Shown here: in pieces, positions 2-23,227 of the stretch
How the letters are laid out: each line of letters starts with the position of its first letter
Numbering within the stretch: position 1 is the first letter of the stretch
IMG/VR virus record: IMGVR_UViG_3300043429_000330
Coordinates: 1 to 29,680 of that record
DNA: 29,680 bases
Strand: one strand, 5' to 3'
Origin: a virus
Position numbers and translations under genes: made by a program
The notes under the pieces: model-generated
Database searches by the model: none
What the model saw: the letters and a program-made list of their open reading frames with translations, nothing else
What the model was told of the DNA's origin: nothing

Positions 2-370
2 TTTAACCGTATCAGAGAAATCAACCCTCAGATAAACACTGTTCTTATTCTTGGAGCAACATTCAAGAAGGGTTGTGATGATACTCGCAACAGTCTATCA
101 TTCAAGATGCGTAAGGTATGTAAGAAGAACGGTGTCGAAGCATATATGGTTGATCCGTTGACCGAGATTGCTGATCAGATATTCCCTACAGAAGAAGTAT
201 ATGATGCGGTGATTGTAATGACACCACACGACGAGTTTATGGATGGTAATGGAATGGCATATAACATTTCACTATTCAGAAAAGATTGTATCATTGCTGA
301 CCTCTGGAAGATGTTTCCAGAAAGTAAACTAAGTAATACAGGCATTTATAAAGTTGGAGATATGCTATGA
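2..370 (+). CDS. Nucleotide-sugar (UDP-glucose type) dehydrogenase, C-terminal part
   Basis: The frame is open from the window edge, so only the last 122 or so residues are present. The visible part starts in the UDP-binding C-terminal domain of the UDP-glucose/GDP-mannose dehydrogenase family. The segment GATFKKGCDDTRNSLSFKM matches the family signature GxTFKxxxDDxRxSP, and a Rossmann-like stretch with YDAVIVMTPHDEF follows. These enzymes oxidise a UDP-hexose to a UDP-uronic acid with two NAD+. The stop codon overlaps the next start (ATGA), and two sugar epimerase-type genes follow, which supports a nucleotide-sugar operon. The catalytic Cys and NAD domain lie outside the window, so activity and exact substrate cannot be judged. 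Confidence 0.85.
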   Translation, partial: FNRIREINPQINTVLILGATFKKGCDDTRNSLSFKMRKVCKKNGVEAYMVDPLTEIADQIFPTEEVYDAVIVMTPHDEFMDGNGMAYNISLFRKDCIIADLWKMFPESKLSNTGIYKVGDML

Positions 371-1365
371 AAGTTTTGGTGACAGGTAGTGAAGGTTCAC
401 TAATGCAGGCGGTCATTCCGCTGCTACTAAAGAAGAAGTATGTTGTATATGGAGTAGACAATCTTGCACGATATGGTGCCAGACTTGGTATCGCTGGTGA
501 TGATTATACCTTTATCAAGTGTGATCTTACAGACGGACTTAGTGTCAATCGTCTTGTTGAACAGGTAAAGCCAGACTATATCATTCAGGCCGCTGCTACA
601 ATCTATGGTGTTGGTGGCTTTAACAAGTATTGTGGTGAAATGTATAAGGACATTACACTACATGATAACGTCCTTCGGGCCGCCGTAGCACACAATGTTA
701 AGAAGGTCATTTACATTTCATCATCTATGGTCTATGAGAACTGTCCTCAGGAACTTGCTTATCCAGTTGGTGAAGATATTGTCGATAGCAACCCAGCACC
801 ATACACCGATTACGGTCTATCTAAGTTTGTTGGCGAACGTGTGTCTAAGGCATATCTCAAGCAGCATGGTCTAAAATACACCATCTGGCGTCCATTCAAC
901 ATCATTACTCCATATGAGAAGTCAGAGTCGGAGGAAGTCGGTATCTCTCATGTCTTTGCTGACTACATCAAGAATATTGTAATTGATAAGAAGAAGCCGC
1001 TACCAATTCTCGGTGATGGCTTTCAGGTTCGTTGCTTCACATGGATCGACGAAGTTGCTGCTGCTATTGCCGATCATTCGTTCTCTGAAAAGACTGATAA
1101 CGAGACCTACAATCTTGGTAACCAAGAGCCAATCTCAATGCGTGTCTTGGCTGAAAAGATCAAAGACATTGCTGCTAATGAGTTTAAACTCCTTGATGAT
1201 TACTTCCTGCTATATGATAGCATTGGTGATTATCAGAACGATGTCCGTGTCCGTATTCCAAACGTTGACAAGGCTAAGAACGACCTTGGTTGGGAAGCCA
1301 AGATGAAAGTAGATGATTCGGTACGTATGTGCCTTAAGTATATTGTAGAGGGAAAGCATGTCTAA
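367..1365 (+). CDS. Extended-SDR NAD-dependent epimerase/dehydratase
   Basis: 332 aa, the usual length for extended short-chain dehydrogenases acting on nucleotide sugars. Visible marks are the N-terminal Rossmann motif TGSEGSL (residues 7-13), a Ser-rich strand YISSSMVYEN, and the active-site YxxxK as YGLSK near residue 150. A C-terminal substrate domain follows. It overlaps the dehydrogenase before it by 4 bp and the GalE-like gene after it by 8 bp, so the three are probably co-translated. The family contains epimerases, dehydratases and reductases of UDP-, GDP- and dTDP-sugars. Which reaction this one performs cannot be told from motifs alone. The second glycine of the usual TGxxGxxG motif is followed by SL rather than FIG. 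Confidence 0.85.
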   Translation: MKVLVTGSEGSLMQAVIPLLLKKKYVVYGVDNLARYGARLGIAGDDYTFIKCDLTDGLSVNRLVEQVKPDYIIQAAATIYGVGGFNKYCGEMYKDITLHDNVLRAAVAHNVKKVIYISSSMVYENCPQELAYPVGEDIVDSNPAPYTDYGLSKFVGERVSKAYLKQHGLKYTIWRPFNIITPYEKSESEEVGISHVFADYIKNIVIDKKKPLPILGDGFQVRCFTWIDEVAAAIADHSFSEKTDNETYNLGNQEPISMRVLAEKIKDIAANEFKLLDDYFLLYDSIGDYQNDVRVRIPNVDKAKNDLGWEAKMKVDDSVRMCLKYIVEGKHV

Positions 1366-2305
1366 AAGATTTGTAGTCACAGGCTGTAATGGTTACATCG
1401 GCAGTCATATGTGCTATGAATTGAAAAAGGCATATCCTGATTGTTGGATACATGGGATAGATAGAAATGAAAAGCAACATCTTAGGTCTCTTTATGATAT
1501 TTTTAGTCATACTGACCTGGCTCTGGATCCCATTATACTATCTCCGTTCGAACGAGAACCAATCGATGCCATCTTCCACTTCGCAGCACTTACAAGCGTT
1601 GAAGAAGGAGAAATGTATCCATTTCAATACTATGACAACAACGTTACAGGATCAATGCGACTGATTAGAGAAGCATTGAAAGAAGGTGTGCCTAACTTTA
1701 TCTTTTCGTCAACCGCCGCTGTGTATGGTGAAAGAAAAGATTCTATGTTTGGTCACTTAAATGAAGATATGCCATTGAACGCCCATTCTGTTTACGGTAA
1801 GACTAAGCAGATGATTGAAGAAGTCCTATTAGGTACTTATGATATGGGTGTGACATGTCTTAGATACTTCAATGCATGTGGTAGAAACGTCGAAGCTGGC
1901 TTGTTTGAGGAGCATGATCCGGAAACTCACCTGATTCCTCTCTTAGTTAAGAACAAGAAGGCTATCATATATGGTGACGATTGGCCAACCAAAGACGGTA
2001 CTTGTATTCGTGATTATGTCCATGTGATCGATATCTGCCGGGCTCATATTCTGGCATATAAGAATATGGAACTCAATCGTGGTATTAGTATTTCAATCAA
2101 TATCGGAACAGGTCACGGACATTCTGTAAAGGAAGTGGTTGACAAGGTGAATGAAATCATTCATAATGGCACCATGGAGATTGTTACACAGTCACGTAGG
2201 GAAGGAGATGTGGCATATCTTGTTGCCTCTACCGACTTGGCAAACATGTACCTAAACTTTAGAGCCGAATATTCCTTGGACGATATCATAGAGAGTATGA
2301 AATGA
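1358..2305 (+). CDS. UDP-glucose 4-epimerase-like (GalE family) protein
   Basis: 315 aa. It has the full extended-SDR signature: TGCNGYIGSH near residue 8, FHFAALTSV, SSTAAVYGE, and the catalytic YGKTK (YxxxK) around residue 146. The GalE-typical stretch LRYFNACG and the motif TCIRDYVHVIDICRAH follow. GalE interconverts UDP-glucose and UDP-galactose (or the N-acetyl forms) using bound NAD+. It sits third in the nucleotide-sugar operon, overlaps its neighbours, and probably supplies sugar donors for glycan or DNA modification. It is somewhat shorter than the 338 aa E. coli enzyme. Epimerase identity is likely, but the exact sugar is uncertain. Confidence 0.88.
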   Translation: MSKRFVVTGCNGYIGSHMCYELKKAYPDCWIHGIDRNEKQHLRSLYDIFSHTDLALDPIILSPFEREPIDAIFHFAALTSVEEGEMYPFQYYDNNVTGSMRLIREALKEGVPNFIFSSTAAVYGERKDSMFGHLNEDMPLNAHSVYGKTKQMIEEVLLGTYDMGVTCLRYFNACGRNVEAGLFEEHDPETHLIPLLVKNKKAIIYGDDWPTKDGTCIRDYVHVIDICRAHILAYKNMELNRGISISINIGTGHGHSVKEVVDKVNEIIHNGTMEIVTQSRREGDVAYLVASTDLANMYLNFRAEYSLDDIIESMK

Positions 2306-2529
2306 ATAAGTGGGAAGAACTACGAAAACTATTGAAGGCTGACATTTCACATGTTGTCCATTACTCTAACGATAAGTATTATGAGCATGGTGTAACCAAG
2401 CGTTATCTTGAATATATGGATTACTTGGAGAAGAAAGAGAAGGAAAAGGGCTTTCTGTTCACCGATATTCCAGACTTTGATAAAGAGCAATGGGACAAGA
2501 TGCTCAAGAACCTTGAAGGACTCTCATGA
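2302..2529 (+). CDS. Small conserved-looking hypothetical protein
   Basis: 75 aa, strongly charged and Lys/Tyr-rich (for example MDYLEKKEKEKGFLF), with no signal peptide, membrane segment or Cys motif. I do not recognise the family. It is joined by ATGA overlaps to the GalE-like gene before it and the 2OG oxygenase after it, so it is almost certainly translated with them. It may be a small partner of the glycan or oxidation enzymes, but nothing in the sequence shows this. Confidence 0.7.
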   Translation: MNKWEELRKLLKADISHVVHYSNDKYYEHGVTKRYLEYMDYLEKKEKEKGFLFTDIPDFDKEQWDKMLKNLEGLS

Positions 2530-3158
2530 ACCTTAGTCCAGAATCCTTTCCAACATCAGGTTATGTGGTGATGGATTTTAATGAACAGGAACTGGCACCT
2601 ATCAAAGAGGAAGTAGAATACATTAAGAACAATGAAACATTGGCTACGAAGATCAATGAAACATTGGCTGGTCATCTAAAGAAAGAATATCTATTAGGGA
2701 AAAGCAAGTCATACTTACAAGACCTGCTAATGCCTGTAATAGACAAGTATGTTGATAGCTTTGGCTTTCCAATCTATGTCAATAACATTCTTTCTAATGA
2801 TGCTCCATATTATCTTGATACAGCATGGGTGAACTTTCAACAAAAGCATGAGTTCAATCCTCTACATGAACATTCTGGTATTTTCAGTTTTGTTATATGG
2901 TTGAGAGTTCCATATGGTGAAGAAGAAAGAGAAGTGTTTAGTGACTTGAAAGCACAGAATACAAGGAATGGGTGCTTTGAGTTTGTTCATGCTGATAGTT
3001 TTGGTCTACCACGGATCAAGAGTGTCTTTGCTGATAGATCATATGAGGGTAAAGGTCTGTTCTTTCCAAGTATGATCAAACATTGTGTCAATCCATTCTA
3101 TTCATCAGATGACTATAGAATAAGCATATCAGGCAACATCAAATTGAGGGTAAGATAA
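2526..3158 (+). CDS. Putative 2OG-Fe(II) oxygenase (phage type)
   Basis: 210 aa. The pattern resembles the putative 2OG-Fe(II) oxygenase family common in T4-like phages (2OG-FeII_Oxy_5 type). It has a WVNFQ strand, the metal-binding segment NPLHEHSG with His114 and His116, a distal His186 in IKHCVNP, and the 2OG-binding Arg198 in DDYRISISGNI. Such enzymes use Fe(II), O2 and 2-oxoglutarate to hydroxylate or otherwise oxidise a substrate. It overlaps its neighbours by 4 bp upstream and by the A of TAATG downstream, placing it between sugar enzymes and an acyl-CoA dehydrogenase. Substrate unknown. It does not share the HxD pattern of the other two 2OG oxygenases in the window, so it is a separate lineage. 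Confidence 0.78.
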   Translation: MNLSPESFPTSGYVVMDFNEQELAPIKEEVEYIKNNETLATKINETLAGHLKKEYLLGKSKSYLQDLLMPVIDKYVDSFGFPIYVNNILSNDAPYYLDTAWVNFQQKHEFNPLHEHSGIFSFVIWLRVPYGEEEREVFSDLKAQNTRNGCFEFVHADSFGLPRIKSVFADRSYEGKGLFFPSMIKHCVNPFYSSDDYRISISGNIKLRVR

Positions 3159-4951
3159 TGCAGTATAAAGCACCAGTAGATTCCACACTATTCCTTCTTC
3201 GTGATGTTCTTAAGTTTGACAATGAACTAACCGAGCCAATCCTAACAGAAATAGCAAAACTATCAGAAGAAACTATCGCACCAACTAATGCGATTGGTGA
3301 TATTGAAGGCTGTAAGTATGTCAAAGAAGAAAACAAAGTTAAAACTCCAGAAGCGTTCAAAGAACCGTATAAAGCGTTTGCCGAAGGAGGCTGGATTGGT
3401 CTTTCGGTTCCTGAACGGTTTGGTGGTCAGGGCTTACCTTTTACACTTGCGGTTGCAGCGAACGAGTTTGTATCCAGTTCTAACATGGCTTGGTCTCTTT
3501 TTCCTGGCATTACACGTGGTGCTATTCAAGCACTCATAGTTTCTGGTTCAGACGCACAGAAAGAAACATTCATTCCACCAATGGTGCGTGGTGAATGGAC
3601 AGGAACAATGTGTCTAACAGAACCACATTGCGGTACTGATCTTGGATTGCTAAAGACTAAAGCAGTAGACAAGCAAAACGGATCATATGAGATTACTGGA
3701 CAGAAGATTTACATTTCTGGTGGTGAACATGATCTAACAAAGAATATTCTACACCTCGTTCTCGCCCGTGTGGAAGGCGATCCAGAAGGTGTCAAAGGTA
3801 TTAGTTTGTTTGCTGTGCCAAAGGTTTTGCCTGACTTCTCACGCAACAAAGTCTTTGCTGGTTCTATTGAAGAAAAGATGGGCATTCATGGATCACCAAC
3901 CTGTGTTATGAACTTTGATGGTGCTACAGGATTTCTTGTGGGCGAACGTTGCCGTGGTCTCCAGGGTATGTTTATTATGATGAATGAACTTAGATTAGGC
4001 TGTGCTATTCACGGTCTATCACAATCGGAGCTTGCGTTTCAAAATGCCTTACAATATGCCAAAGACAGAATCCAGAGTAAGAGTGCCGTCGATCTTAGCG
4101 GTCCTAGTGTCGCTATTCTTTCACATCCTGATATTAGGCGTATGCTTATGGATGTTCGCTGCATTAATGAAGCTGCCCGTCTATTAGTATTAGAAGCAGC
4201 CACATTAGTTGATAAGATTGAAGAAACAAAAAGAATAGCAAAATATAATGAAAAAGAATATAATTATCTAAAAACCAGTCTTGATGCTTCACCGCCCAAG
4301 TTAGATACTTCTTCATGGGTAGGACCTGACATAGAAAGAGCAATAGAAGAAGCGGAAGATCGTCTTGGTCTTATGACTCCAGTTCTTAAAGGTGTTATTA
4401 CTGACTATGGTGTTGAGAACGCTATCAAGATGCAGCAGGTATGGGGTGGTCATGGTTATGTCCGTGACAATGGCATGGAACAAATCGTAAGAGACGCCAG
4501 AATCGCCATGATCTATGAAGGTGCTAATGGTATTCAGGCACTTGATCTTGTTGGTCGTAAGTTGCCAAAGAACATGGGTCGTGCTGTTATGCGTTTCTTC
4601 AAAGACACTGAAACGTTCCTAACAAGTTCTTATGAACACGATATCAACCATATCGTGCAGCCAATGGCACTGGCTATTGATGAACTAAAGCAAGCAACAG
4701 AATGGTTAGCAGCGAACGGTATGAAGAATCCAAACGATGCTGGTGCAGCAAGTTATCCATATATGAAAATGTTTGGATTGGTTTTGTTAGGGTTGGCACA
4801 TATTCGTATCTGCCTTGCTACTGACGACAAAGCAAGACATACTACCGCAACTTATTTTATGGAGAATGTCTTGCCAGAATCCAGTTTCTTACTGAAAAAG
4901 ATACGTCAGGGATCATCAACAATGATGGCACTAACTCCAGACGAGTTCTGA
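3158..4951 (+). CDS. Acyl-CoA dehydrogenase, DmdC-like, full length
   Basis: 597 aa, the length of the large bacterial acyl-CoA dehydrogenases related to DmdC (3-methylmercaptopropionyl-CoA dehydrogenase) rather than the 380 aa mitochondrial type. Family-typical stretches are all present: SVPERFGGQGLP near 83, GEWTGTMCLTEPHCGTDLG near 145, ITGQKIYISGGEHDLT near 179, EKMGIHGSPTCVM near 239 and QQVWGGHGYVRDNGMEQ near 426. IYEGANGIQALDL contains the expected catalytic Glu454. A C-terminal helical extension ends in TMMALTPDEF. The gene therefore looks functional: it would oxidise an acyl-CoA to the 2-enoyl-CoA using FAD. A charged, poorly conserved insert lies around 353-400. Its start overlaps the stop of the 2OG oxygenase. 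The last 46 bp are also the end of a convergent HNH gene. An acyl-CoA dehydrogenase is very unusual for a phage. Confidence 0.93.
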   Translation: MQYKAPVDSTLFLLRDVLKFDNELTEPILTEIAKLSEETIAPTNAIGDIEGCKYVKEENKVKTPEAFKEPYKAFAEGGWIGLSVPERFGGQGLPFTLAVAANEFVSSSNMAWSLFPGITRGAIQALIVSGSDAQKETFIPPMVRGEWTGTMCLTEPHCGTDLGLLKTKAVDKQNGSYEITGQKIYISGGEHDLTKNILHLVLARVEGDPEGVKGISLFAVPKVLPDFSRNKVFAGSIEEKMGIHGSPTCVMNFDGATGFLVGERCRGLQGMFIMMNELRLGCAIHGLSQSELAFQNALQYAKDRIQSKSAVDLSGPSVAILSHPDIRRMLMDVRCINEAARLLVLEAATLVDKIEETKRIAKYNEKEYNYLKTSLDASPPKLDTSSWVGPDIERAIEEAEDRLGLMTPVLKGVITDYGVENAIKMQQVWGGHGYVRDNGMEQIVRDARIAMIYEGANGIQALDLVGRKLPKNMGRAVMRFFKDTETFLTSSYEHDINHIVQPMALAIDELKQATEWLAANGMKNPNDAGAASYPYMKMFGLVLLGLAHIRICLATDDKARHTTATYFMENVLPESSFLLKKIRQGSSTMMALTPDEF

Positions 4952-5601
4952 TGTTGTTTGGAGTTTAGATGCTGATCCCAGTTGTGTTGTCCTCTTATAT
5001 CACGATTACAACATGAGCAATGAAACACAGGAGCAGTTTGGAAATACTTCTTTCGTCTTTCCGACTGCTCTTGTCTCTTTTTAGGATCAGACCATGTTTC
5101 TTTATGCTTCTTTGATAATGCTTCTCTTTTGGCAGTATCGGACCAAATCTTTGAACTTATCTTTGATCTTTCCTCCAAGTATTCAGGAGAGTTTCTAATG
5201 GCCACCATATTATCACGAAACTCTGGATCATCCCATTGTCTTTTTAGATTGTCTGACCTTAGTTTTCTTATCTCAGGAGCGTTATTGATTTCTAACATTC
5301 TGGCATAGTATTCAGGATCAGACCATCTTTCATTATTCAACTTGGTGGCAAAGTCAGAGATTTCTTGTTGGGACATTTTGAGTTTTTGAGATATTCTCAA
5401 ACAAGCGTATGTGTCGTTCTGGGAATAATGGATATCATAGTGTTCCTGTATAGAAACACACTGGAGATTATCTATATGATTATTGGAATGATTACCGTCA
5501 ATGTGATGGATTTCATACGATCTTCCTTGTTCGTCTTTAGGAATAGGACCGTTGAAATGTTCCCAGATTTTGCGATAGTTGGTTGTAGTATAAATATCCA
5601 T
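4906..5601 (-). CDS. HNH homing endonuclease with WxDPE repeats and C2H2 finger
   Basis: 231 aa on the minus strand. The N-terminal HNH core reads EIHHIDGNHSNNHIDNLQ followed by HYDIHY, the typical ββα-metal nuclease signature. Four repeats beginning with a Trp-Asp motif (RWSDPEYY, QWDDPEFR, IWSDTAKR, TWSDPKKR) follow between about residues 90 and 190. They resemble the small helical DNA-binding repeats of phage homing endonucleases. The C-terminus carries a Cys2His2-type zinc finger (CSCCNRD, then HLNSKQH). A strong RBS, GGAGGT, lies 5 nt before the ATG. The gene runs against the operon, and its 3' end overlaps the last 46 bp of the acyl-CoA dehydrogenase. It is most likely a free-standing selfish element. 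Confidence 0.9.
   Translation of the reverse strand: MDIYTTTNYRKIWEHFNGPIPKDEQGRSYEIHHIDGNHSNNHIDNLQCVSIQEHYDIHYSQNDTYACLRISQKLKMSQQEISDFATKLNNERWSDPEYYARMLEINNAPEIRKLRSDNLKRQWDDPEFRDNMVAIRNSPEYLEERSKISSKIWSDTAKREALSKKHKETWSDPKKRQEQSERRKKYFQTAPVFHCSCCNRDIRGQHNWDQHLNSKQHQNSSGVSAIIVDDP
5589..5596 (+). promoter_or_regulatory. Possible T4-type late promoter box TATAAATA
   Basis: The exact T4 late-promoter -10 word TATAAATA lies on the plus strand, inside the first codons of the minus-strand HNH gene and about 95 bp before the start of the next plus-strand gene (5684). It would restart transcription after the inserted HNH gene. A single 8-bp match in AT-rich DNA can occur by chance, and I found no second clean copy in the window. 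Confidence 0.3.
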
Positions 5602-5683
5602 GCTGGACCTCCGATCAGGTTTAGAGTAGGTGAGGATTCCCGTCCTGCGACCTACACTTCTATTTAGTATTCCGAGGTTTTTG

Positions 5684-5824
5684 ATGAAATCGTGGAAAGA
5701 ACTTGACTTCCGAGAACAGATGGTGTATATTAGACAGGCTGAGTATCTACAGGAAAAAGGATACTTTCCTGGAATAGATCCTTTCGTGGTTGCGGAAATG
5801 TTGTATAGGAAAAGAAATAAGTGA
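5684..5824 (+). CDS. Small hypothetical protein
   Basis: 46 aa, rich in aromatic and charged residues (EYLQEKGYFPGIDPFVVAEM), with no known motif. The ATG at 5684 is chosen over the upstream in-frame start at 5630 because GAGG lies at a proper distance before it and the extra N-terminus looks non-coding. The stop overlaps the next start (TGATGA). It is the first gene after the HNH insertion. Confidence 0.6.
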   Translation: MKSWKELDFREQMVYIRQAEYLQEKGYFPGIDPFVVAEMLYRKRNK

Positions 5825-6192
5825 TGACTAACGACCTGATTGAAGTGTTGCGAGGCATGGGCGACTATGGCTACGCATATGGCAATGAAGCAGCCGACGC
5901 ATTAGAGGCGAAAGATGAACAGATTGCTAAACTTGAATATGAACTCAAAACTACGAAACATAACCACAATGAATGGCTAAAGACACTTGACGTAAAAATA
6001 GTTGATAAACAAACTGCTATTATTGCAGAACTTATTGAGGCGCTAACTCCCTTCGCTATGGCCGCTGATGATATAGAAGATAATCATGTTTCCGGCAATA
6101 TATGGGAAAGTCCTGCTGCTATAAACATTAGCGTTGATGATTTGATGAAAGCAAAAGAAATCGTAAGGAAATATAATGACGGATTATTATAA
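5824..6192 (+). CDS. Hypothetical protein with central coiled coil
   Basis: 122 aa. The N-terminus (DLIEVLRGMGDYGYAYGNEA) and the segment ADALEAKDEQIAKLEYEL resemble the Ead/Ea22-like accessory proteins of many phages, where a variable head is followed by a short coiled coil. A second amphipathic section, AELIEALTPFAMAADDIED, follows. The ATG at 5824 overlaps the preceding stop and has AGGAAAAG upstream; the GTG at 5821 is a less likely start. Function unknown. Confidence 0.65.
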   Translation: MTNDLIEVLRGMGDYGYAYGNEAADALEAKDEQIAKLEYELKTTKHNHNEWLKTLDVKIVDKQTAIIAELIEALTPFAMAADDIEDNHVSGNIWESPAAINISVDDLMKAKEIVRKYNDGLL

Positions 6193-6373
6193 AGACTACG
6201 ATGATACAGAACATTATAAAGAAAGAGTAAGGATTGAATCCAAAGAGAACGAAAGAAAACTATCTTTGGGGTATGTAGAAATACCCTCTCAGATAAGACC
6301 TTTCTTTGGAAATCAGAAATGGATTCATAAAGATTATTTAGATATCCTTAGAGATTGGGTGAAAAATGACTGA
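6176..6373 (+). CDS. Small hypothetical protein
   Basis: 65 aa, very polar (YKDYDDTEHYKERVRIESKE), ending in a Trp/Asp-rich tail. No recognised family. It overlaps the gene before it by 17 bp, has AAGGA 6 nt upstream, and overlaps the mini-gene after it by 8 bp, so it belongs to the same transcript. Confidence 0.6.
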   Translation: MTDYYKDYDDTEHYKERVRIESKENERKLSLGYVEIPSQIRPFFGNQKWIHKDYLDILRDWVKND

Positions 6374-6491
6374 CGATAAGGACAGACACAATACCGCAGA
6401 ATACTTTATGAACCGTATTCTACCAGAAACAAGTATGCTATTGAAGCGTATGCGTTTTGGAAGTGAGACGATGATGAAGGCGGAACTATAA
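6366..6491 (+). CDS. Mini-gene homologous to the acyl-CoA dehydrogenase C-terminus
   Basis: 41 aa. It aligns without gaps to the last part of the acyl-CoA dehydrogenase encoded at 3158-4951: TDDKDRHNTAEYFM here against TDDKARHTTATYFM there, followed by LPET/LPES and a shared TMM near the end. By my manual count about 24 of 38 aligned residues are identical. It has its own ATG inside the previous gene and a stop that overlaps the next start (TAATG), so it may be translated. It could be a relic of a second dehydrogenase, or a 3' fragment displaced by the HNH insertion. It holds no catalytic residue. Confidence 0.75.
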   Translation: MTDDKDRHNTAEYFMNRILPETSMLLKRMRFGSETMMKAEL

Positions 6492-6670
6492 TGGCACAGT
6501 TACAAATTGATCCAGATAAACTTGAAGTTGGTGATATGATTTTGGTTGAAGGATTTGTTGTTGGATTTACAGAAGATCCAAGCACATTTGCACCTGAGGC
6601 GATTATTGACTTTGGAACACTTAAACCAGCAAATGTCAAATATACAAGGATTAGAGAAATCCTAAAATGA
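6491..6670 (+). CDS. Small hypothetical protein
   Basis: 59 aa with a β-rich look: alternating hydrophobics in LEVGDMILVEGFVVGF, then DFGTLKPANVKYTRI. No recognised family. The start overlaps the preceding stop (TAATG) and the stop overlaps the next start (ATGA), so the reading frame is well supported by context. Confidence 0.6.
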   Translation: MAQLQIDPDKLEVGDMILVEGFVVGFTEDPSTFAPEAIIDFGTLKPANVKYTRIREILK

Positions 6671-7354: not shown

Positions 7355-7380
7355 CAACAAGGTGTGACAATATGTCGCAC

Positions 7381-7409
7381 TTGACAAACCTCAAATAAGC
7401 CTGTATAAT
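7381..7409 (+). promoter_or_regulatory. sigma70-type promoter
   Basis: TTGACA at 7381-7386, a 17-nt spacer and TATAAT at 7404-7409 give a full consensus host promoter. Transcription would begin near 7416, just before the RBS GGGGG and the ATG at 7434. This is typical of a strong early phage promoter. Confidence 0.85.
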
Positions 7410-7433
7410 GGTTTCAGTTTTATGGGGGTTTAC

Positions 7434-7829
7434 ATGCCGCTTTTACCAGCCTATTATACCACAACCAATCAGCGCAAGCGCAAGCAACGCAAATACGACC
7501 GTTCCGAGCATGACGCTTGGCTTATCAAGATGGGTGTGTCACCCCAACAAATCAAAATAAAAAAGTCTAAGAATACTTCCTGGGCAAAAGAATATGCCGA
7601 GTCTCTAAAAGTAGATCGGTCAACGGCTCAATACGAATCCGCAGGCATGTCAGGTGATGCGTCTTCCTGCGCCAATCGTTCTATCATGGCTAATCTACAC
7701 AAGGAGCCCGAGCATGTGAGAGAGGCAATCTTGGCCAAGGCAAAGCGTGTCGGACCTTTATGGAACAAAGGTGGTCTTATGTTTATTACTGATGATCAAG
7801 ATTTGACAACTTTGGGTAAAAAGGTTTAG
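7434..7829 (+). CDS. Conserved-looking phage protein of unknown function
   Basis: 131 aa. The N-terminus is strongly basic (NQRKRKQRKYDR), followed by HDAWLIKMGVSPQQI and a section SWAKEYAESLKVDRSTAQ. It ends in LGKKV. The basic head suggests nucleic-acid or protein binding, but I do not recognise a domain. The ATG at 7434 is preferred to 7422 because it has GGGGG at the right distance, and 7422 would lie within a few bases of the transcription start. It is the first gene after a consensus promoter. The last 44 bp overlap the end of a convergent HNH gene. Confidence 0.75.
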   Translation: MPLLPAYYTTTNQRKRKQRKYDRSEHDAWLIKMGVSPQQIKIKKSKNTSWAKEYAESLKVDRSTAQYESAGMSGDASSCANRSIMANLHKEPEHVREAILAKAKRVGPLWNKGGLMFITDDQDLTTLGKKV

Positions 7830-8283
7830 GTTCTATTCCAACTCTCTTTCTGCCATTCCCTCTGTTCTTTACTTTATAAGTATCAGTTTGGGAATGGCAG
7901 TTAGGACATAGTAATCTAACATTTACCAACCCGTTATCGTTGGAGTTACCGTTGATGTGGTCTAAATCTAAAATAATAGGTTTTCCGTTCCATTCGCTAA
8001 TGTCACATTCTTCGCATTTATATCCTCGGGTTTCGGATAGGAATCTTTTGGTTGATCCTATTCCTGCTATACCGAGGTCTATTGCCCGCTTTCTATTATA
8101 TTCATGCTGGCATTTGTTATTATTACAAAACTTTTTAGGACGGTTTGCTCTTACTCTTGGTCCGAGTTCGGTACCGCAGTTTAGGCATTTGTCTATTAGA
8201 TCCTTATTCTTTACTCTTTTATCTTGAAAGGAACCATTATTCTTCCTTTCTCTATACTCGGCCATATATTCTGCTCTTGACAT
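7786..8283 (-). CDS. HNH endonuclease with zinc-ribbon Cys pairs
   Basis: 165 aa on the minus strand. The order is a basic N-terminus, a CLNCGTE...FCNNNKCQ zinc-binding knuckle, then CEECDISEWNG, the HNH core LDLDHINGNSNDNGLVN, and CPNCHSQTDTYK. This is the common phage HNH type with two Cys pairs stabilising the fold. A perfect AGGAGG lies 6 nt before the ATG. Like the HNH at 4906-5601, it is convergent to the operon and ends inside the gene it faces. It is not similar in domain layout to that one, so the two are independent insertions. Confidence 0.9.
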   Translation of the reverse strand: MSRAEYMAEYRERKNNGSFQDKRVKNKDLIDKCLNCGTELGPRVRANRPKKFCNNNKCQHEYNRKRAIDLGIAGIGSTKRFLSETRGYKCEECDISEWNGKPIILDLDHINGNSNDNGLVNVRLLCPNCHSQTDTYKVKNRGNGRKRVGIEPKPFYPKLSNLDHQ

Positions 8284-10531: not shown

Positions 10532-10776
10532 TCCGTTACTTTGCTATGATTGCTGCGGTGCTTATTAGCACCTCGGCTTTCGCCCACAATCATGTTCCTT
10601 ATGGAACATACTATAACCCTGTGCAGGATCCGCCCTTCGCTGGTGACTGGTCTGTTCCGGTTCATCGTGGTATGTATTGTGTTGGTGGAACTTGGCACTA
10701 TGGTTGGCTTCGTCCGTGGGAACGTTCCCCTGTGATCAAGCCATCTTGTGGTACGGCAATCTATCAGATTAACTAA
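10528..10776 (+). CDS. Small exported protein rich in His/Trp/Pro
   Basis: 82 aa. Signal peptide MIRYFAMIAAVLISTSAFA with cleavage after AFA. The mature part is rich in aromatic residues and Pro (HNHVPYGTYYNPVQDPP, then GTWHYGWLRPWERS), with two Cys that could form one disulfide. Overlaps the previous gene by 4 bp and the next by 1 bp. Periplasmic location expected; function unknown. Confidence 0.7.
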   Translation: MIRYFAMIAAVLISTSAFAHNHVPYGTYYNPVQDPPFAGDWSVPVHRGMYCVGGTWHYGWLRPWERSPVIKPSCGTAIYQIN

Positions 10777-11642
10777 TGAGCATTTCGTTTAATGAGATAA
10801 AAAGTCTCTTTAACGAAGATGAATGGGATGTAGGGTATCTTTCTGCGGAAGCATTAAGAAGATGTGCCCTGCATCCCATTAAACTAATCAACCTTTACAT
10901 ACCAGAAAACTTCACCAACAACATATACTTTAAAGAAACCGAAGCCATTGTTCTAATACGTTCGGGTCATACATGGGATTATACCTTGTATGGTGAGTCG
11001 GTAAACATTCTAAGTAAAACAGATTACAAGTTCCATCAGATACACACCAACTATAAAGAAGCTGCCATATTGGCAGGACTTGGAGTTCGTGCCAGAAACT
11101 CTCTAATCTATTCTTACAGGTTCGGCTTTGATCATCATATTGCCGCTTTCAGATTTGATGATAAGATAACAGATATACCGACACATACCAGAGTAAACTA
11201 CAAACTATGGAACAGGTGTGTAGGTTGTGACGATTGTATCAAAGCATGTCCTGTAAATGCGATACATGCTGACGGTGAACCATTATCATGGTGGCTGGAC
11301 TCTGGTAAGTGTAATGACTTTCTGACATATGGTAATGATAAGAACATACCATCAGTCAAACAGTTCTGGCACAAAAACTTATATCCAGAAATACCTGATG
11401 AGCAGGTAGAGAAACTAACATCATCATCGGAGCCTATTGAAGGCACTATAACGGCGTCAGATAGATATAAAAGAGGTCTACAGCCATGGGAAAGAAACCT
11501 GCCGTGGAACAAGAATGGCTATAGTTTCGATGGTCAAGTGGTCAGAAAAGATGGTCAGGTGGTTGATGTTCCTATTTGTCGTGAATGTACCTCACAACCC
11601 AGATGTTCTAAGTGGAATGGAAAGTATCCATATGAGAGGTGA
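10776..11642 (+). CDS. QueG-like [4Fe-4S] protein (epoxyqueuosine reductase family)
   Basis: 288 aa. The central part resembles epoxyqueuosine reductase QueG and related reductive-dehalogenase-like proteins. AAILAGLGVRARNSL (96-110) parallels the conserved AGLGxxGKN segment of QueG. It is followed by the ferredoxin motif CVGCDDCIKACP (Cys148, 151, 154, 158). Cys179 (SGKCND) and a C-terminal Cys group CRECTSQPRC (268, 271, 277) could hold a second cluster. QueG uses cobalamin and two [4Fe-4S] clusters to make queuosine in tRNA. This protein is shorter than the usual 350-380 aa, and its second cluster motif is unusual. It could therefore be a relative with another substrate. It sits 3 bp before a 2OG oxygenase gene. 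Confidence 0.75.
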   Translation: MSISFNEIKSLFNEDEWDVGYLSAEALRRCALHPIKLINLYIPENFTNNIYFKETEAIVLIRSGHTWDYTLYGESVNILSKTDYKFHQIHTNYKEAAILAGLGVRARNSLIYSYRFGFDHHIAAFRFDDKITDIPTHTRVNYKLWNRCVGCDDCIKACPVNAIHADGEPLSWWLDSGKCNDFLTYGNDKNIPSVKQFWHKNLYPEIPDEQVEKLTSSSEPIEGTITASDRYKRGLQPWERNLPWNKNGYSFDGQVVRKDGQVVDVPICRECTSQPRCSKWNGKYPYER

Positions 11643-11645: not shown

Positions 11646-12233
11646 ATGATCATTATTGATGACCTGTTGACGAAAGATCAGCAAGATTTGATAGAGACGA
11701 CGGCACTCCGAATACCATGGTTCTATCAAGACAATACTTGTGACTTCTCTTACATACCTAACTATCCTCAACAGATAGAAGGCGTAAAAGAGACTCCGTT
11801 CTTTGTTAACATGCTATATGATGAATTTCAATCACAATCCGATTACTCTATATACTTTACACCAATTGTGAGAGTTCTAGAACAACGGCTGAAACGGCCT
11901 TTCATGAAACGTCTGTTTCGTATGAAGGCCAACATGTATCTACAGCAACCTAACTATCCGGATGGTTGCTTTCACACTCCGCATGTGGACGTGTATGACG
12001 AAAAGACAGATACGATTGGAGAGGGTGAGATTTTTCTATACTATGTGGACGCCAGCGATGGACCTACGTATATGTTCAACGAGAGATTTCCATCGGCCAG
12101 CGTAACCAAGACTGCCTGGGTGATTCCGGAGAAGGGTAAGGGTGTTCTATTTGATCTTCAAACTCAACATGCTTCCTCACCACCAAGATTCCATGAGAGA
12201 CGGATTACTTTAAACTTCGTATTCACTAAATAG
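11646..12233 (+). CDS. 2OG-Fe(II) oxygenase (HxD...H type)
   Basis: 195 aa. The Fe-binding HxD is in HTPHVDVYD (His113, Asp115). The distal His175 lies in QTQHASSPP, and the 2OG-binding Arg186 in ERRITLNFVF. It is paralogous to the oxygenase at 27957-28565: both have FRMKANMYLQ or WRIKANLYTK before the HxD, FLYYVDASDG or FLYFVNDADG after it, and MFNE, GKxVLF and ITLNFVF. It follows the QueG-like Fe-S gene by 3 bp, so the two are probably co-expressed. Substrate unknown. The T4-like relatives are often annotated only as prolyl 4-hydroxylase-like. Confidence 0.85.
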   Translation: MIIIDDLLTKDQQDLIETTALRIPWFYQDNTCDFSYIPNYPQQIEGVKETPFFVNMLYDEFQSQSDYSIYFTPIVRVLEQRLKRPFMKRLFRMKANMYLQQPNYPDGCFHTPHVDVYDEKTDTIGEGEIFLYYVDASDGPTYMFNERFPSASVTKTAWVIPEKGKGVLFDLQTQHASSPPRFHERRITLNFVFTK

Positions 12234-14448: not shown

Positions 14449-16991
14449 TGAATAGATTTTATACTAATGTTGAGGTATGGGGCGGCAAGATCCTATACCG
14501 TGGTGTTCAGGATGGCCGTCGGGTTAATCAAAGAATTGATTATAACCCGACGCTATTCGTGCATTCCGATAAGCCAACCAAATACAAGACCATTCACGGA
14601 CAATATGTTGGACCTGTTAAGCAAGGTTCAATCCGTGAGGCTCGTGACTTTATCAAGCAGTATGAAGGCGTTGAAAGTTTCAAGATTTATGGCAACAATC
14701 GTTATCAGTATTGTTTCATTGCTGACGAGTTCCCTGGCCAGATTGATTGGAACATCAATGACATTAATGTTGCCAACATCGATATTGAAACGGGTTCTGA
14801 CAATGGCTTTCCTGAACCTGACGATGCCAATGAACCTCTAATAGCCATCACAGTTCACATGAATAACATGTTCACTACATTCGGTTGTGGTGACTATGAT
14901 AACACTCGTGACGATGTGATCTATTACAAATGTTCGGATGAGTTTGACCTCGTTCGTAAGTTTGTTGGCTGGTGGCAATCTAACACACCTGACGTTGTGA
15001 CTGGCTGGAATATTGAAGCGTTCGATATCCCTTACATGGTCAACCGTATCATCAAGCTATTTGGTGATAGTGAAGCTAAGAAGCTATCACCATGGAATGT
15101 TATATCTCCACGACTCGTTGACGTTGGTATGAAGAAGGTGAATACTTATGGTATTCTTGGTGTACCTCTACTTGATTTCATGAAGCTATACCGTTGGTAT
15201 GCTCCTGATGGCAAGTCACAAGAATCCTATAAGTTGGATAATATCGGTCACGTTGAACTGGGTGAACGCAAGTTATCGTATGAGGAGTATGGCTCTCTCC
15301 ATAACCTGTATAAAGAAAACTATCAAATGTTCATTGACTATAACATCAAAGACGTTGATATCGTTCGCAGGTTGGAAGAGAAGCATAAGCTAATTGAATT
15401 GGCTCTTACTCTCTCATATGATAACAAGTGTAACTATGAGGACGTGTTTACACAAGTCCGTATGTGGGACGTTATCTGTTACAACCATCTTAAGGCAAAG
15501 AACATTGTAGTTCCACCTATTGAAAGGCATGAGAAAGATGCTGCATACGTTGGTGCTTATGTTAAAGACCCTATTGTGGGTTTTCACAATTGGGTGGCTT
15601 CTTTCGATGTTAACAGCGAGTATCCGTCTGTTATTATGGGAAGCAACATTTCTCCCGAAACCATTGTTGAAGTGGACGATTATACTGATGATATGCGTCG
15701 TCTTATCTCCGATGGGGTATCCGTTGATAAACTTCTTTGTAAGGGCATCGACACATCTTGCCTTAACGCTGACAATGTTTGCCTGACGGCTAACGGTCAG
15801 TTCTATCGCCGTGACAAGCAAGGCTTTATGCCTGAAATGATTGAGAAGATGTTTGCTGACCGCAAAATCTATAAGAAGGCTATGTTAGATGCTGAAACAA
15901 AATACGAGGTTGAGACTGACCCGCAAAAGAAAGCACAACTCAAAAAAGAGATTGCAAAGTTCAAGAACCTCCAGCTTTCTAAAAAGGTATCCCTTAACTC
16001 CCTATACGGTGCAATGGGTTCGCAGTATTTTAGGTTCTTCGACCTACGTAATGCGATTGCGGTCACGACTACGGGTCAGCTTTCCATACGGTGGATCGAA
16101 AATAGACTTAATACATATCTCAGAAAGGTATTAAAGACAAATGAAGATTTCGTTATTGCAGTCGATACTGACTCCGTGTATCTCAACCTTGCAGAAGTGG
16201 TATATAAGACGCTGCCTGGTGATGTTAAAGATCCTGCGAAAGCCATCCATTTCCTGGACAGAGTATGTGAAAGTAAACTGCAACCTGTTATTGATCAGGC
16301 TTGCGGAGAACTTGGCGAATACACTAACGTCTTTCAACAAAAGATTGTCATGAAGCGTGAAGTCTTGGCAGACAAAGCAATCTGGACTGCCAAGAAACGA
16401 TACATTCTAAACGTCCATAACTCCGAGGGTGTGCAGTATGCCCAGCCAAAGAAGAAGGTTATGGGCCTTGAAATGATCAAGTCATCCACACCTACAGCAT
16501 GTCGAGAGAAACTAAGGGAATCTATTGATGTTATCTTTGGATCAGACGAAGCGGCTATTCAGTCTTTCATTGAAACTTTCCGTGGTGAATTTGAAACTCT
16601 GCCTTTGGCGGACATTTCATTTCCTCGTGGCCTCAATGCTCTCGTTAAGTGGCAAGATAAAAAGAGCCTATTTGCATCCGGATGTCCTATTCATGTTCGT
16701 GGTGCTATCTTATATAATCACCTTCTATGGAGCAATAGCCTTGTTTCTAAGTATCCGATGATTCAGACTGGTGAGAAACTTAAATACATATACTTGAAAG
16801 AGCCAAACCATATTCAGTCAAACATCATTAGCTTCCCAGCCAGTGGTTTGCCGGAAGAGTTTGACTTACACAAGTATATCGATTATAATACACAGTTCGA
16901 TAAGGCGTTCCTTGAACCATTGAAGATCATTCTCAATGCTATTGATTGGAAAGCGGAACGTGTAGCAAGTCTGGAGGATTTCTTCTCATGA
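14448..16991 (+). CDS. 43: T4-type family B DNA polymerase (gp43)
   Basis: 847 aa, somewhat shorter than T4 gp43 (898 aa). All proofreading and polymerase motifs are present. Exo I is NIDIETGS with Asp112 and Glu114. Exo II is WNIEAFDIP with Asp193. Exo III is YNIKDVD (298-304). Motif A is FDVNSEYPSV with Asp387, motif B is KKVSLNSLYG (512-521), and motif C is VDTDSVYL with Asp573 and Asp575. It is the replicative DNA polymerase and heads the block pol-uvsX-helicase. The stop overlaps the start of the halogenase (ATGA). The start overlaps the Sm-like gene by one base. No intein or intron is visible. Confidence 0.97.
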   Translation: MNRFYTNVEVWGGKILYRGVQDGRRVNQRIDYNPTLFVHSDKPTKYKTIHGQYVGPVKQGSIREARDFIKQYEGVESFKIYGNNRYQYCFIADEFPGQIDWNINDINVANIDIETGSDNGFPEPDDANEPLIAITVHMNNMFTTFGCGDYDNTRDDVIYYKCSDEFDLVRKFVGWWQSNTPDVVTGWNIEAFDIPYMVNRIIKLFGDSEAKKLSPWNVISPRLVDVGMKKVNTYGILGVPLLDFMKLYRWYAPDGKSQESYKLDNIGHVELGERKLSYEEYGSLHNLYKENYQMFIDYNIKDVDIVRRLEEKHKLIELALTLSYDNKCNYEDVFTQVRMWDVICYNHLKAKNIVVPPIERHEKDAAYVGAYVKDPIVGFHNWVASFDVNSEYPSVIMGSNISPETIVEVDDYTDDMRRLISDGVSVDKLLCKGIDTSCLNADNVCLTANGQFYRRDKQGFMPEMIEKMFADRKIYKKAMLDAETKYEVETDPQKKAQLKKEIAKFKNLQLSKKVSLNSLYGAMGSQYFRFFDLRNAIAVTTTGQLSIRWIENRLNTYLRKVLKTNEDFVIAVDTDSVYLNLAEVVYKTLPGDVKDPAKAIHFLDRVCESKLQPVIDQACGELGEYTNVFQQKIVMKREVLADKAIWTAKKRYILNVHNSEGVQYAQPKKKVMGLEMIKSSTPTACREKLRESIDVIFGSDEAAIQSFIETFRGEFETLPLADISFPRGLNALVKWQDKKSLFASGCPIHVRGAILYNHLLWSNSLVSKYPMIQTGEKLKYIYLKEPNHIQSNIISFPASGLPEEFDLHKYIDYNTQFDKAFLEPLKIILNAIDWKAERVASLEDFFS

Positions 16992-18568
16992 GTAAACCAA
17001 TCAATAAGATTGTCATTGTAGGCGGTGGTTCAGCCGGTTGGATGACCGCTGCCACCCTTATACAAAGATTACCAGGACGAGAAGTGGTTCTTATTGAGGA
17101 TCCCAACACCCCTACAGTGGGTGTTGGTGAATCCACTTTAGGCTTCATCAATGAATGGCTGCGTCTATTACAGATTAAAGATACTGACTTTATGAAGGCC
17201 TGTGATGCCACTTATAAGATGTCTATTAGTTTCACTGACTTTTATAAGAAGGGCGCAGGCACATTCCATTATCCATTCGGTGGTATTGATGTTACAGGTA
17301 ACAAGTATGCCAAGAATGATTGGTATCTAAAAAAGTTCCTCTATCCTAACACACCTGTATCTGACTATGCTGATTGTGTCTATCCAATCATGTCACTGGT
17401 TAATGCTAACCGTGTTGATATCGATGCCAAGATTCCCAGCTTTCTATTTCAACGAGATGTTGCATATCATTTTGATGCTGTAAAGTTTGCTATATGGCTT
17501 CGTGACAACTATGCCGTGCCACGAGGTGTAAAGCATATCAGAGCATTGGTCAAAGACATATTGACAAATGAAGAAGGTATTGAAAAGCTGGTACTGGACA
17601 CGGGCGAGGAGATTACTGCCGATCTATTCATTGACTGTACCGGTTTCAGATCAATCCTTCTTGGTGGTGCCTTGAATGAACCATTCAATTCATATGAGGA
17701 CATTCTACCAAACAACTCTGCATGGGCAGCACAGATTCCATATGATAACAAGCGTGAGGAGATTGTGCCTTACACCGATTGTTGGGCTATTGAAAATGGC
17801 TGGGTGTGGAATACTCCACTATGGAGCCGACTTGGCACTGGTTATGTCTTTTCTGATAAGTATGTTTCCGATGAGCAAGCATTGGAAGAATTTAAGGCAC
17901 ACCTAAAGCGCAAGGGTAAATTGCGTGAAGATCAAAAGTTCCGCAAGATCCAGTTTAGAACAGGAATCTACAATCGTCTATGGGTTAAGAATGTTTGTGC
18001 CATTGGTCTATCTGCTGGCTTCATCGAGCCATTAGAAAGCAACGGGCTATATTCGGTTCATATGTTCCTTGTTCGTCTGCTTCGTGCTATTGATAGAGAC
18101 CAAGAAGCCCATATGGTTTCAGAGTTTGATCGTAATAGTTTCAACTGGTCTTGTCGTTCTATGTTTGACGGCTTTGCACAGTTTGTTGCCTTACATTATT
18201 CTCTTTCATATAGAGATGATACTGAATATTGGCGTGATGTTGGTAGAAGAAGCTATTGCGATGTTGATAAGTCTTTACATCGTGGCAATTCAAGAGATGA
18301 CTCATTCATCCAGGCATTTGATGCCAAGTTCAATGTAACAAGGTTTAACAATGATGGTATGAATGCCGTGGCCACTGGTCTGCATTACTATTCTACTGAC
18401 CTACATTTCATTCATTCGGCTAATGACGCAGGAGTAAATCTGGCAGAGGAGTTTGAAGAAGTAACCAAGAACTTAAACACCAAGAAAGAACTATGGGACT
18501 TTTTAGCGTCCAAGTGTCCAACTGTATATGACTTTACCAAAGAAAGGATCTATCATGGCGAAGAATAA
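16988..18568 (+). CDS. Tryptophan-halogenase-type flavoprotein
   Basis: 526 aa, the normal length of FADH2-dependent tryptophan halogenases (PrnA/RebH). Key parts: the FAD motif GGGSAG (12-17), the PTVGVGESTLG strand (42-52), and Lys77 in ATYKMSISF, matching the catalytic Lys79 of PrnA. WVWNTP (272-277) lies where halogenases have WxWxIP, but with Thr for Ile. GFIEPLES (344-351) holds the conserved acidic residues. The family makes HOCl at the flavin and passes it to Lys to chlorinate an indole or other aromatic. It sits between gp43 and uvsX, overlapping gp43 by 4 bp. Related annotations exist in T4-like cyanophages as far as I recall. A separate flavin reductase would be needed and is not seen here. 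Confidence 0.88.
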   Translation: MSKPINKIVIVGGGSAGWMTAATLIQRLPGREVVLIEDPNTPTVGVGESTLGFINEWLRLLQIKDTDFMKACDATYKMSISFTDFYKKGAGTFHYPFGGIDVTGNKYAKNDWYLKKFLYPNTPVSDYADCVYPIMSLVNANRVDIDAKIPSFLFQRDVAYHFDAVKFAIWLRDNYAVPRGVKHIRALVKDILTNEEGIEKLVLDTGEEITADLFIDCTGFRSILLGGALNEPFNSYEDILPNNSAWAAQIPYDNKREEIVPYTDCWAIENGWVWNTPLWSRLGTGYVFSDKYVSDEQALEEFKAHLKRKGKLREDQKFRKIQFRTGIYNRLWVKNVCAIGLSAGFIEPLESNGLYSVHMFLVRLLRAIDRDQEAHMVSEFDRNSFNWSCRSMFDGFAQFVALHYSLSYRDDTEYWRDVGRRSYCDVDKSLHRGNSRDDSFIQAFDAKFNVTRFNNDGMNAVATGLHYYSTDLHFIHSANDAGVNLAEEFEEVTKNLNTKKELWDFLASKCPTVYDFTKERIYHGEE

Positions 18569-21772: not shown

Positions 21773-21849
21773 GGTTCCGTAGTTCAGCTGGATAGAACAG
21801 GGGATTTCTACTCCCAAGGTCGAGGGTTCGAATCCTTCCGGGACCGCCA
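21773..21849 (+). tRNA. tRNA-Arg(TCT)
   Basis: Full cloverleaf: acceptor GGTTCCG/CGGGACC, D stem GTTC/GAAC, anticodon loop TTTCTAC (TCT), T-loop TTCGAAT, and encoded CCA. The 27-43 pair is G-A. It reads AGA, a codon often rare in GC-rich hosts. Confidence 0.9.
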
Positions 21850-21855
21850 TTCTAT

Positions 21856-21931
21856 AGAGGTGTAGCCAAGTGGTTAAGGCCATCCGCTCATAACGGATTT
21901 ACCGTGGGTTCGAATCCCTCCGCCTCTACCA
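21856..21931 (+). tRNA. tRNA(CAT), elongator Met or lysidine Ile2
   Basis: Acceptor AGAGGTG/CGCCTCT, anticodon stem ATCCG/CGGAT, loop CTCATAA (CAT), T-loop TTCGAAT, CCA encoded. The A1-T72 pair and the absence of the GGG/CCC anticodon stem exclude an initiator. Met and Ile2 (AUA) cannot be separated by eye. Confidence 0.88.
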
Positions 21932-22005
21932 GGTATGTCAACAGTCTACAAAGTCAATAGATTAAGGGTGCGTCAAGTTGTCGCAGAAAAAAGTGAAAAA
22001 AGTTC

Positions 22006-22034
22006 TTGACTTTGTGTTTTAGAGCCTATATAGT
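22006..22034 (+). promoter_or_regulatory. sigma70-type promoter
   Basis: TTGACT at 22006-22011, a 17-nt spacer and TATAGT at 22029-22034. It drives the small gene at 22059 and probably the following tRNAs. An ATG at 22035 directly after the -10 cannot be a start if this promoter is used. Confidence 0.75.
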
Positions 22035-22058
22035 ATGCGAACGATTGAGAGAGATGAC

Positions 22059-22244
22059 ATGAAGGACGAAACTGTTAAACGAGATTACTTTTGGATAGTT
22101 GAAGCCTCTGATCGTAACGGTCGGGTAAACTATCGTAAAGAGTACCACGATAAAGATGGTTCGGCATTCAAGGACTATACTCGCTTGAAGGCGCAAGGTA
22201 CTGTTACCTTACAGCGCAAGTATAAAGAGTATAAGATTGCCTAA
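22059..22244 (+). CDS. Small hypothetical protein inside the tRNA array
   Basis: 61 aa, basic (KRDYFWIVEASDRNGRVNYR, tail LQRKYKEYKIA). The strand pattern suggests a small β-sheet protein. The start at 22059 is chosen over 22035 because the latter lies at or before the expected transcription start and 22059 has a purine-rich GAGAGAGAT upstream. No family recognised. Confidence 0.65.
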   Translation: MKDETVKRDYFWIVEASDRNGRVNYRKEYHDKDGSAFKDYTRLKAQGTVTLQRKYKEYKIA

Positions 22245-22283
22245 CTAAAGGCTGTTTGACAATTGAATATGGTTATAGTAACT

Positions 22284-22358
22284 GGTCTGCGGGTCGGATG
22301 GTAAGGCACAGGACTGCAAATCCTTGAGGACTCGGTTCAATTCCGAGGCAGACCTCCA
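22284..22358 (+). tRNA. tRNA-Cys(GCA)
   Basis: Acceptor GGTCTGC/GCAGACC, anticodon loop CTGCAAA (GCA), T stem CTCGG with loop TTCAATT, discriminator T and CCA encoded. The 27-43 pair is C-T. Confidence 0.88.
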
Positions 22359-22378
22359 TTTACTATTAATAGATTTAT

Positions 22379-22457
22379 TCCGGAGAATCCGAGCAAGGTG
22401 CATGGACGTGACTGTTAATCACTGGTTAGTGGGGTTCGATTCCCCAATCCGGAGCCA
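22379..22457 (+). tRNA. tRNA-Asn(GTT)
   Basis: Acceptor TCCGGAG/ATCCGGA (last pair mismatched), anticodon loop CTGTTAA (GTT), T arm TGGGG/CCCCA with loop TTCGATT, discriminator G and CCA encoded. Confidence 0.85.
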
Positions 22458-22461
22458 ATAC

Positions 22462-22536
22462 GGCCCCTTCGTCTATCGGTTAGGACACGAGACTTTCAAT
22501 CTTGTAAGAGGAGTTCGATTCTCCTAGGGGTCACCA
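22462..22536 (+). tRNA. tRNA-Glu(TTC)
   Basis: Acceptor GGCCCCT/AGGGGTC, D arm GTC/GAC, anticodon stem CGAGA/TCTTG, loop CTTTCAA (TTC), T-loop TTCGATT, discriminator A and CCA encoded. Confidence 0.9.
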
Positions 22537-22543
22537 ATTATAT

Positions 22544-22619
22544 GGACCGTTAGCTGAGTTGGTTTTAGCAGGAGACTCTTAATCTCTTGACGGGGGTTCG
22601 AATCCCTCACGGTCTACCA
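22544..22619 (+). tRNA. tRNA-Lys(CTT)
   Basis: Acceptor GGACCGT/ACGGTCT, anticodon stem GGAGA/TCTCT, loop CTCTTAA (CTT), T-loop TTCGAAT, CCA encoded. The anticodon stem is well paired, unlike that of the TTT isoacceptor in this array. Confidence 0.88.
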
Positions 22620-22624
22620 TTTAT

Positions 22625-22701
22625 GTTCTGTCTGGCATGGTGCCGTGAAGGGATTTATAACCCTGGATCGAATGACCGTTCGAATCGGACGCAGGACGCC
22701 A
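22625..22701 (+). tRNA. Aberrant tRNA, anticodon possibly TAT (Ile)
   Basis: Acceptor GTTCTGT/GCAGGAC with wobble pairs, T arm GACCG/CGGAC with a normal TTCGAAT loop, and encoded CCA are clear. The D arm (GGC ATGGT GCC) is very short. The anticodon arm is AGGG/CCCT around an 8-base segment ATTTATAA. TAT (Ile, AUA) is the most likely anticodon; TTA is possible. Confidence 0.55.
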
Positions 22702-22705
22702 ATTT

Positions 22706-22786: not shown

Positions 22787-22797
22787 TACTTTATTTT

Positions 22798-22873: not shown

Positions 22874-22878
22874 TTAAT

Positions 22879-22951
22879 GCGGGCGTTCTCCTGGGAGAGG
22901 ACACAGCCTTCCAAGCTGTTGGAATCGGTTCGAATCCGGTCGCCCGCTCCA
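22879..22951 (+). tRNA. tRNA-Gly(TCC)
   Basis: Acceptor GCGGGCG/CGCCCGC, anticodon stem ACAGC/GCTGT, loop CTTCCAA (TCC), T-loop TTCGAAT, discriminator T and CCA encoded. Confidence 0.9.
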
Positions 22952-23225: not shown

Positions 23226-23227
23226 GT

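Follow-up and report, generated by a model that had tools for sequence, protein, structure and literature searches.

The stretch analysed here (the window) is the entire public record of 29,680 bases, and what is said of its genome refers to that length. On the plus strand it carries an intact gene for a FadE-type acyl-CoA dehydrogenase (ACAD) of 597 aa (3158..4951). The initial annotation had described a 597-aa enzyme with all family blocks and a catalytic Glu, and this description is borne out. The reading frame is open, and the Pfam ACAD N, M and C domains are found together with PF12806 (Acyl-CoA_dh_C, E 1e-20), all above the Pfam cut-offs. The catalytic base, E454 (codon 4517-4519, plus strand), lies in the motif IYEGANG and is aligned to E441, the catalytic base of FadE1 (PMC11890623). 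By alignment offset it also pairs with E435 of 6ijc, the MMPA-CoA dehydrogenase of Roseovarius and the top phmmer match in the PDB (523 bits). An AlphaFold2 model of the protein (pLDDT 87.9, pTM 0.89) matches FadE2 and FadE1 with a TM score of 0.90 in Foldseek, MMPA-CoA dehydrogenase also being among the closest solved folds.

Phage context and neighbourhood of the gene

The contig is of phage type, encoding a gp43-type DNA polymerase (48% to cyanomyoviruses), UvsX, a DnaB-like helicase and 24 tRNAs; by this gene content it is assigned to a T4-like phage. The tRNA genes form one 4.5-kb block (21773-26261). The window also codes for a tryptophan-halogenase family protein (PF04820, E 6e-104; 16946-18568) between the DNA polymerase and UvsX, which L014 has too, and for a 288-aa 4Fe-4S protein (10776-11642) that weakly resembles reductive dehalogenases and QueG, is 94% identical in L015 and is followed by a 2OG-oxygenase-like gene. 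The T4-like late-promoter motif ATAAATA occurs twice in the window, where 7.4 occurrences would be expected, and neither lies before the ACAD gene.

In IMG/VR, two scans turned up this ACAD gene on about 40 contigs at 54-99% identity, several of them 158-174 kb long. The initial annotation had suggested searching other large phages and had raised the possibility of a prophage/host junction; its presence on so many viral contigs, several of them that long, shows that the window is not such a junction. Phage counts given here leave out L144-L146 and L150, viral-labelled contigs carrying other ACAD lineages far from the window clade. In L021 the frames of the ACAD gene and its neighbours are broken alike, which looks like sequencing error. 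Matches in INPHARED to 'Acinetobacter phage MD-2021a' (CAKLQF/CAKLQH records) appear to lie on bacterial contigs that carry a phage label by mistake, and they were not counted among the viral hits. No PHROGs family covers the ACAD, and a BFVD fold search returned nothing but a distant Tupanvirus acyl-CoA oxidase.

Upstream lies the end of a nucleotide-sugar operon (107..2305, plus strand), with a truncated UDPG_MGDP_dh-type ORF, an epimerase and GalE. It is followed on the same strand by a 75-aa ORF of cluster c5 (2302..2529), a small upstream gene found near the ACAD in 13 loci, and by a 2OG-Fe(II) oxygenase-like ORF (2526..3158), inside whose stop the ACAD gene starts by 1 nt. The translational link to sugar genes and a 2OG oxygenase claimed by the initial annotation therefore stands in the window, with its 1-nt overlap, but not across the family: the 2OG gene is beside the ACAD in two loci only, the window and one other, and elsewhere the ACAD lies behind spanin-like genes (L001, L008, L019) or DnaB (L006, L007). 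The link to the sugar operon is not conserved and holds in part of the family only.

The recurring neighbour of the ACAD is pmoC (PF04896), present in 8 of the 20 ACAD-phage records. Counting near-identical contigs, pmoC lies 0.6-5.3 kb downstream of the ACAD on the same strand on 19 ACAD contigs, 14 ACAD contigs with at least 6 kb of sequence are without it downstream, and the ACAD is found in 18 of the 37 pmoC contigs that extend 5 kb or more upstream. In the window, two small conserved genes that flank pmoC in L002, L003 and L014 stand 67 bases apart (7355..7421, plus strand) with no pmoC between them. Decayed pieces of pmoC are found downstream of the ACAD in L013 (5329-5492) and L022 (4353-4516). 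Several of these phages also encode an FtsH-type AAA protease (PF01434, PF00004; L001 9060-10853) downstream of the ACAD. The pmoC linkage, like the HNH cassette and displaced 3' end described below, had been missed by the initial annotation.

An HNH cassette at the 3' end of the gene

Codons 555-597 and the stop codon of the window ACAD (4820..4951, plus strand) make up a substitute 3' end assigned to an HNH cassette, its boundaries being set from the start of a displaced copy of the older end. Convergent with this ending and overlapping it is an ORF for an HNH_3 endonuclease of 231 aa (4906..5601, minus strand; PF13392, E 7.5e-14) with a C2H2-like finger near its C-terminus, 97% identical in L003 and L015. 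The displaced older end lies further downstream as an ORF of 41 codons that begins with an ATG of its own (6366..6491, plus strand; tblastn match 6366-6479) and is 97.5% identical in amino acids over 40 residues to the C-terminus of the L019 ACAD. The displaced copy starts at the point where the window ACAD switches to its different ending, and the junction of the endings falls in ACTGACGA. The same arrangement is found in eight further contigs (L001, L002, L003, L013, L015, L018, L022 and L023). L004 has a smaller insertion (11685-12137) in which another C-terminus stands in for that of the ACAD; the displaced end is unchanged in kind and likewise begins with an in-frame ATG.

Compared in 150-nt windows, L001 and L003 are mostly 88-93% identical (57-93%) within the ACAD gene body, but over the final few hundred bases of that gene and on as far as the displaced copy every window is 97-100% identical. 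This pattern indicates a recent transfer with co-conversion between different genomes. An HNH homing cassette thus appears to have rewritten the 3' end of the ACAD gene, bringing with it an in-frame C-terminus, with the gene body stable. Alternatively, the two endings were joined by ordinary phage recombination and the HNH gene is a bystander; this is made less likely by how nearly identical the cassette is between contigs and by the HNH gene overlapping the new ending. One-sided repair with microhomology junctions has been described for T4 homing (PMC2988022). No Rfam intron was found at E <= 1 in 4700-6600 in a search for a group I intron. As read here, the cassette is a case of an endonuclease element reshaping the terminus of a phage metabolic gene.

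An in-frame ATG opens all copies of the displaced end, even where the upstream gene differs, and the differences between copies are mostly synonymous; the displaced end may be translated, or it may merely be a useful stretch of homology. In L019 the terminal codons of the ACAD gene recur about 140 bases beyond it as ACAATGATGAAGGCAGACCTATGA (8 codons, stop included; 11832-11855), perhaps left over from an earlier insertion at this 3' end. A further minus-strand ORF in the window (7786-8283) reads like a putative second HNH protein.

Conservation, descent and the acyl tunnel

On 80 cellular proteins and three PDB relatives, 131 near-invariant columns were defined, and 94 of them are unchanged across all 23 phage ACADs, including the catalytic Glu and most flavin and CoA positions. 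Among the kept columns are T154, E155, G159, T160, D161, R304, R445, D446, R448 and E454, the last being present in 23/23 phage and 80/80 cellular proteins compared; some near-invariant columns have been lost in the loop at 308-322. The FAD- and CoA-binding residues, whose loss the initial annotation had named as decisive against its reading, are thus retained as motifs in all 23. Pairwise omega between phage ACADs has a median of 0.19 (range 0.11-0.29), which indicates that the gene is under purifying selection. Motifs, fold and omega are together the marks of a working enzyme, and activity is presumed from them.

In a scan of bacterial genomes the closest cellular relatives of the ACAD were from Alphaproteobacteria. 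In a large quick tree, all 24 phage ACADs form one clade (support 100) adjoining two Methylocystis proteins. In a smaller careful tree the phage clade has support of 100/100 and its union with Methylocystis 93/89, within a group made up mostly of Beijerinckiaceae, Methylobacteriaceae and Methylocystis (98/96). The sister of the phage clade is likely Methylocystis fadE (L048, L069), which is about 52-61% identical to phage ACAD over aligned segments and belongs to a fadE-thiolase-FadB operon, with thiolase and 3HCDH/ECH genes coming after fadE. The long phage stem, about 0.5 changes per site, shows the capture of the gene to be old. The best trees place 6ijc outside the phage-Methylocystis group, and in an AU test its union with the phage clade was not rejected (p 0.18). 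The label 'DmdC type' given by the initial annotation holds for the fold family but is not supported as a function or identity, the nearest cellular gene being a Methylocystis fadE in a fadE-fadA-fadB operon. Chen et al. 2020 assigned alphaproteobacterial methanotroph hosts to pmoC-phages (PMC7674155). Given that published assignment, the pmoC linkage and the kinship with Methylocystis, the host of the window phage group is likely a freshwater, Methylocystis-like methanotroph.

In Pseudomonas aeruginosa, the acyl tunnel is pinched at Gly129 and Ala295 in FadE1 and at Met130, Glu296 and Gln303 in FadE2, and added bulk at the FadE1 pinch moved preference from long to medium chains (PMC11890623). 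The window ACAD has G117 (codon 3506..3508, plus strand) at the first position, the same as Gly129 of the long-chain FadE1. At the position of Ala295 and Glu296 it has L278 (3989..3991, plus strand), and at that of FadE1 Gln302 and FadE2 Gln303 it has H285 (4010..4012, plus strand). All 80 cellular relatives have Ala and Gln at these latter two sites, as do 12 phage ACADs; Leu278 is found in 11 and His285 in 10, the window protein having both. This distribution places the origin of the A278L and Q285H changes within the phage clade. Because both lie at the known pinch point, the window sub-lineage has probably shifted its substrate choice to chain lengths other than those the host enzyme prefers; this expected effect on the tunnel is based on homology to FadE1 and FadE2.

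Proposed role, alternatives and known systems

The ACAD is found on phage DNA, is host-derived and is kept by selection, and in these respects it is an auxiliary metabolic gene. Its most probable role, which we favour with reasonable though not full confidence, is that of a phage FadE, captured long ago from a Methylocystis-like source, held by purifying selection and feeding host beta-oxidation. The initial annotation had allowed that the protein may feed this pathway, and with an intact, catalytically complete ACAD encoded on phage DNA the suggestion remains plausible. Under this proposal, FadE would have been acquired from a Methylocystis-like alphaproteobacterial methanotroph. During infection the FAD-dependent phage enzyme, with its fold and catalytic residues in place, would oxidise host acyl-CoA to trans-2-enoyl-CoA. 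Electrons would pass to host ETF and ETF-QO, and on to ubiquinone, and host FadB and FadA would finish the cycle to yield acetyl-CoA and NADH. The cell, if limited at the first step of the pathway, would gain additional carbon and reductant. No ETF, enoyl-CoA hydratase or ACP was found in 15 phage records, most of which are fragments, so that the absence is provisional; AMP-binding was found in one of the 15. Methylocystis genomes have ETF and ETF-QO along with the remaining beta-oxidation operon. Since the phage records are without these partners and Methylocystis has them, a single added enzyme at the first step of the host pathway is the simplest reading.

Other roles were weighed against this one. 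The protein could instead act as a DmdC-like MMPA-CoA dehydrogenase, converting methylmercaptopropionyl-CoA to its acryloyl form in DMSP or methionine-derived sulfur metabolism, as its best PDB match, its place among the best folds, the AU result and a tunnel narrowed by L278 and H285, which would suit a short substrate, might suggest. We regard this as improbable: FadE1 and FadE2 fit equally by fold, 6ijc lies outside in the best trees, the likely host is a freshwater methanotroph, no DMSP gene was noticed, and the closest cellular genes precede thiolase and FadB-type genes in a beta-oxidation operon, which leaves no dmd neighbourhood in the source organism. About equally doubtful is that the enzyme yields short-chain unsaturated acyl-CoA (butyryl-CoA to crotonyl-CoA, for instance), feeding the ethylmalonyl-CoA/serine cycle in place of burning long chains. 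Crotonyl-CoA is used by serine-cycle methylotrophs. The pinch in the window lineage has gained bulk equivalent to that which moved FadE1 to medium chains (PMC11890623), but the deep phage branches retain the Ala/Gln tunnel of the host, and therefore a short-chain role cannot be the founding one.

The sugar operon invites a different reading, also raised by the initial annotation, in which the ACAD desaturates an acyl group for a phage or host sugar in glycan or envelope chemistry, with the epimerases and 2OG oxygenase as its partners. In the window and several relatives the ACAD does end a nucleotide-sugar operon, with start and stop codons overlapping. Yet given the spanin and DnaB neighbours elsewhere, the single other locus with the 2OG gene, the lack of ACP in the 15 records and the catabolic nature of the closest cellular gene, this is very unlikely, and the proposal of an unsaturated acyl donor is not upheld. 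We give as little credence to a passenger or moonlighting protein without acyl-CoA dehydrogenase function, such as one with AidB-like DNA protection. The ACAD is solitary, its pathway partners are absent from the phage records and related bacterial genes were named aidB by INPHARED annotators, but purifying selection, the intact catalytic base and FAD/CoA motifs, and a fold far nearer FadE (TM 0.90) than AidB (TM 0.72, 18% identity) all speak for the enzyme.

The phage FadE may also act in a two-gene scheme, which is possible but rather unlikely. In it, FadE would draw on the lipid acyl-CoA of the host and yield ubiquinol by way of ETF and ETF-QO, meeting the reductant cost of a methane monooxygenase sustained by phage PmoC, and the tunnel mutations would tune FadE to the acyl pool of the infected cell. 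If active, the ACAD would be a fatty-acid-oxidation enzyme kept across a phage lineage; and because its gene shares a variable locus with pmoC, viruses would affect methane oxidation through the supply of reductant and carbon as well as through the monooxygenase. That large freshwater phages, whose hosts are probably methanotrophs, keep an intact ACAD under selection, often near a viral methane-oxidation gene, suggests that they steer the energy supply of the cells they infect. The pinch-point substitutions offer a sharp test case for phage retuning of a host enzyme.

Compared with known enzymes, the window ACAD is like FadE1 and FadE2 (PA0506/PA0508) of P. aeruginosa in fold, catalytic Glu and large-ACAD architecture, at 38-40% identity, but differs in being phage-borne, in its altered 308-322 loop and in having L278 and H285 at the tunnel pinch. 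The Methylocystis fadE is part of a full operon, whereas the phage copy is solitary and its tunnel residues are changed. DmdC (6ijc) shares the large-ACAD family and fold and an aligned catalytic Glu but in the best trees does not join the phage and Methylocystis sequences.

In the open-access literature no paper on a complete phage ACAD was found, the nearest mention being that of Chen et al. 2020, whose main text records, for three genomes, a 2-kb region containing only "part of an" ACAD (PMC7674155). The pmoC-phages described there are likewise large T4-like freshwater phages with about 40% GC and about 20-25 tRNAs. Relative to that account of part of an ACAD near pmoC, what is new is that the ACAD is full length, widespread in phages and selected; in the window, moreover, the pmoC slot is empty. 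The 2-kb region, common to three coinfecting Lake Mendota phages and left unexplained in that text, is probably the HNH cassette, which would offer an explanation for it.

The cassette itself resembles the C-terminus-replacing mORF elements of Allomyces and Glomus mitochondria (PMC3630166). The window has the endonuclease gene, the in-frame substitute 3' end and, downstream, the displaced native 3' end matching relatives that characterize such elements. Unlike in the mORF elements, the HNH gene is on the opposite strand, the rewritten gene is a metabolic gene of a T4-like phage, and the displaced end still forms an ORF that has a separate ATG.
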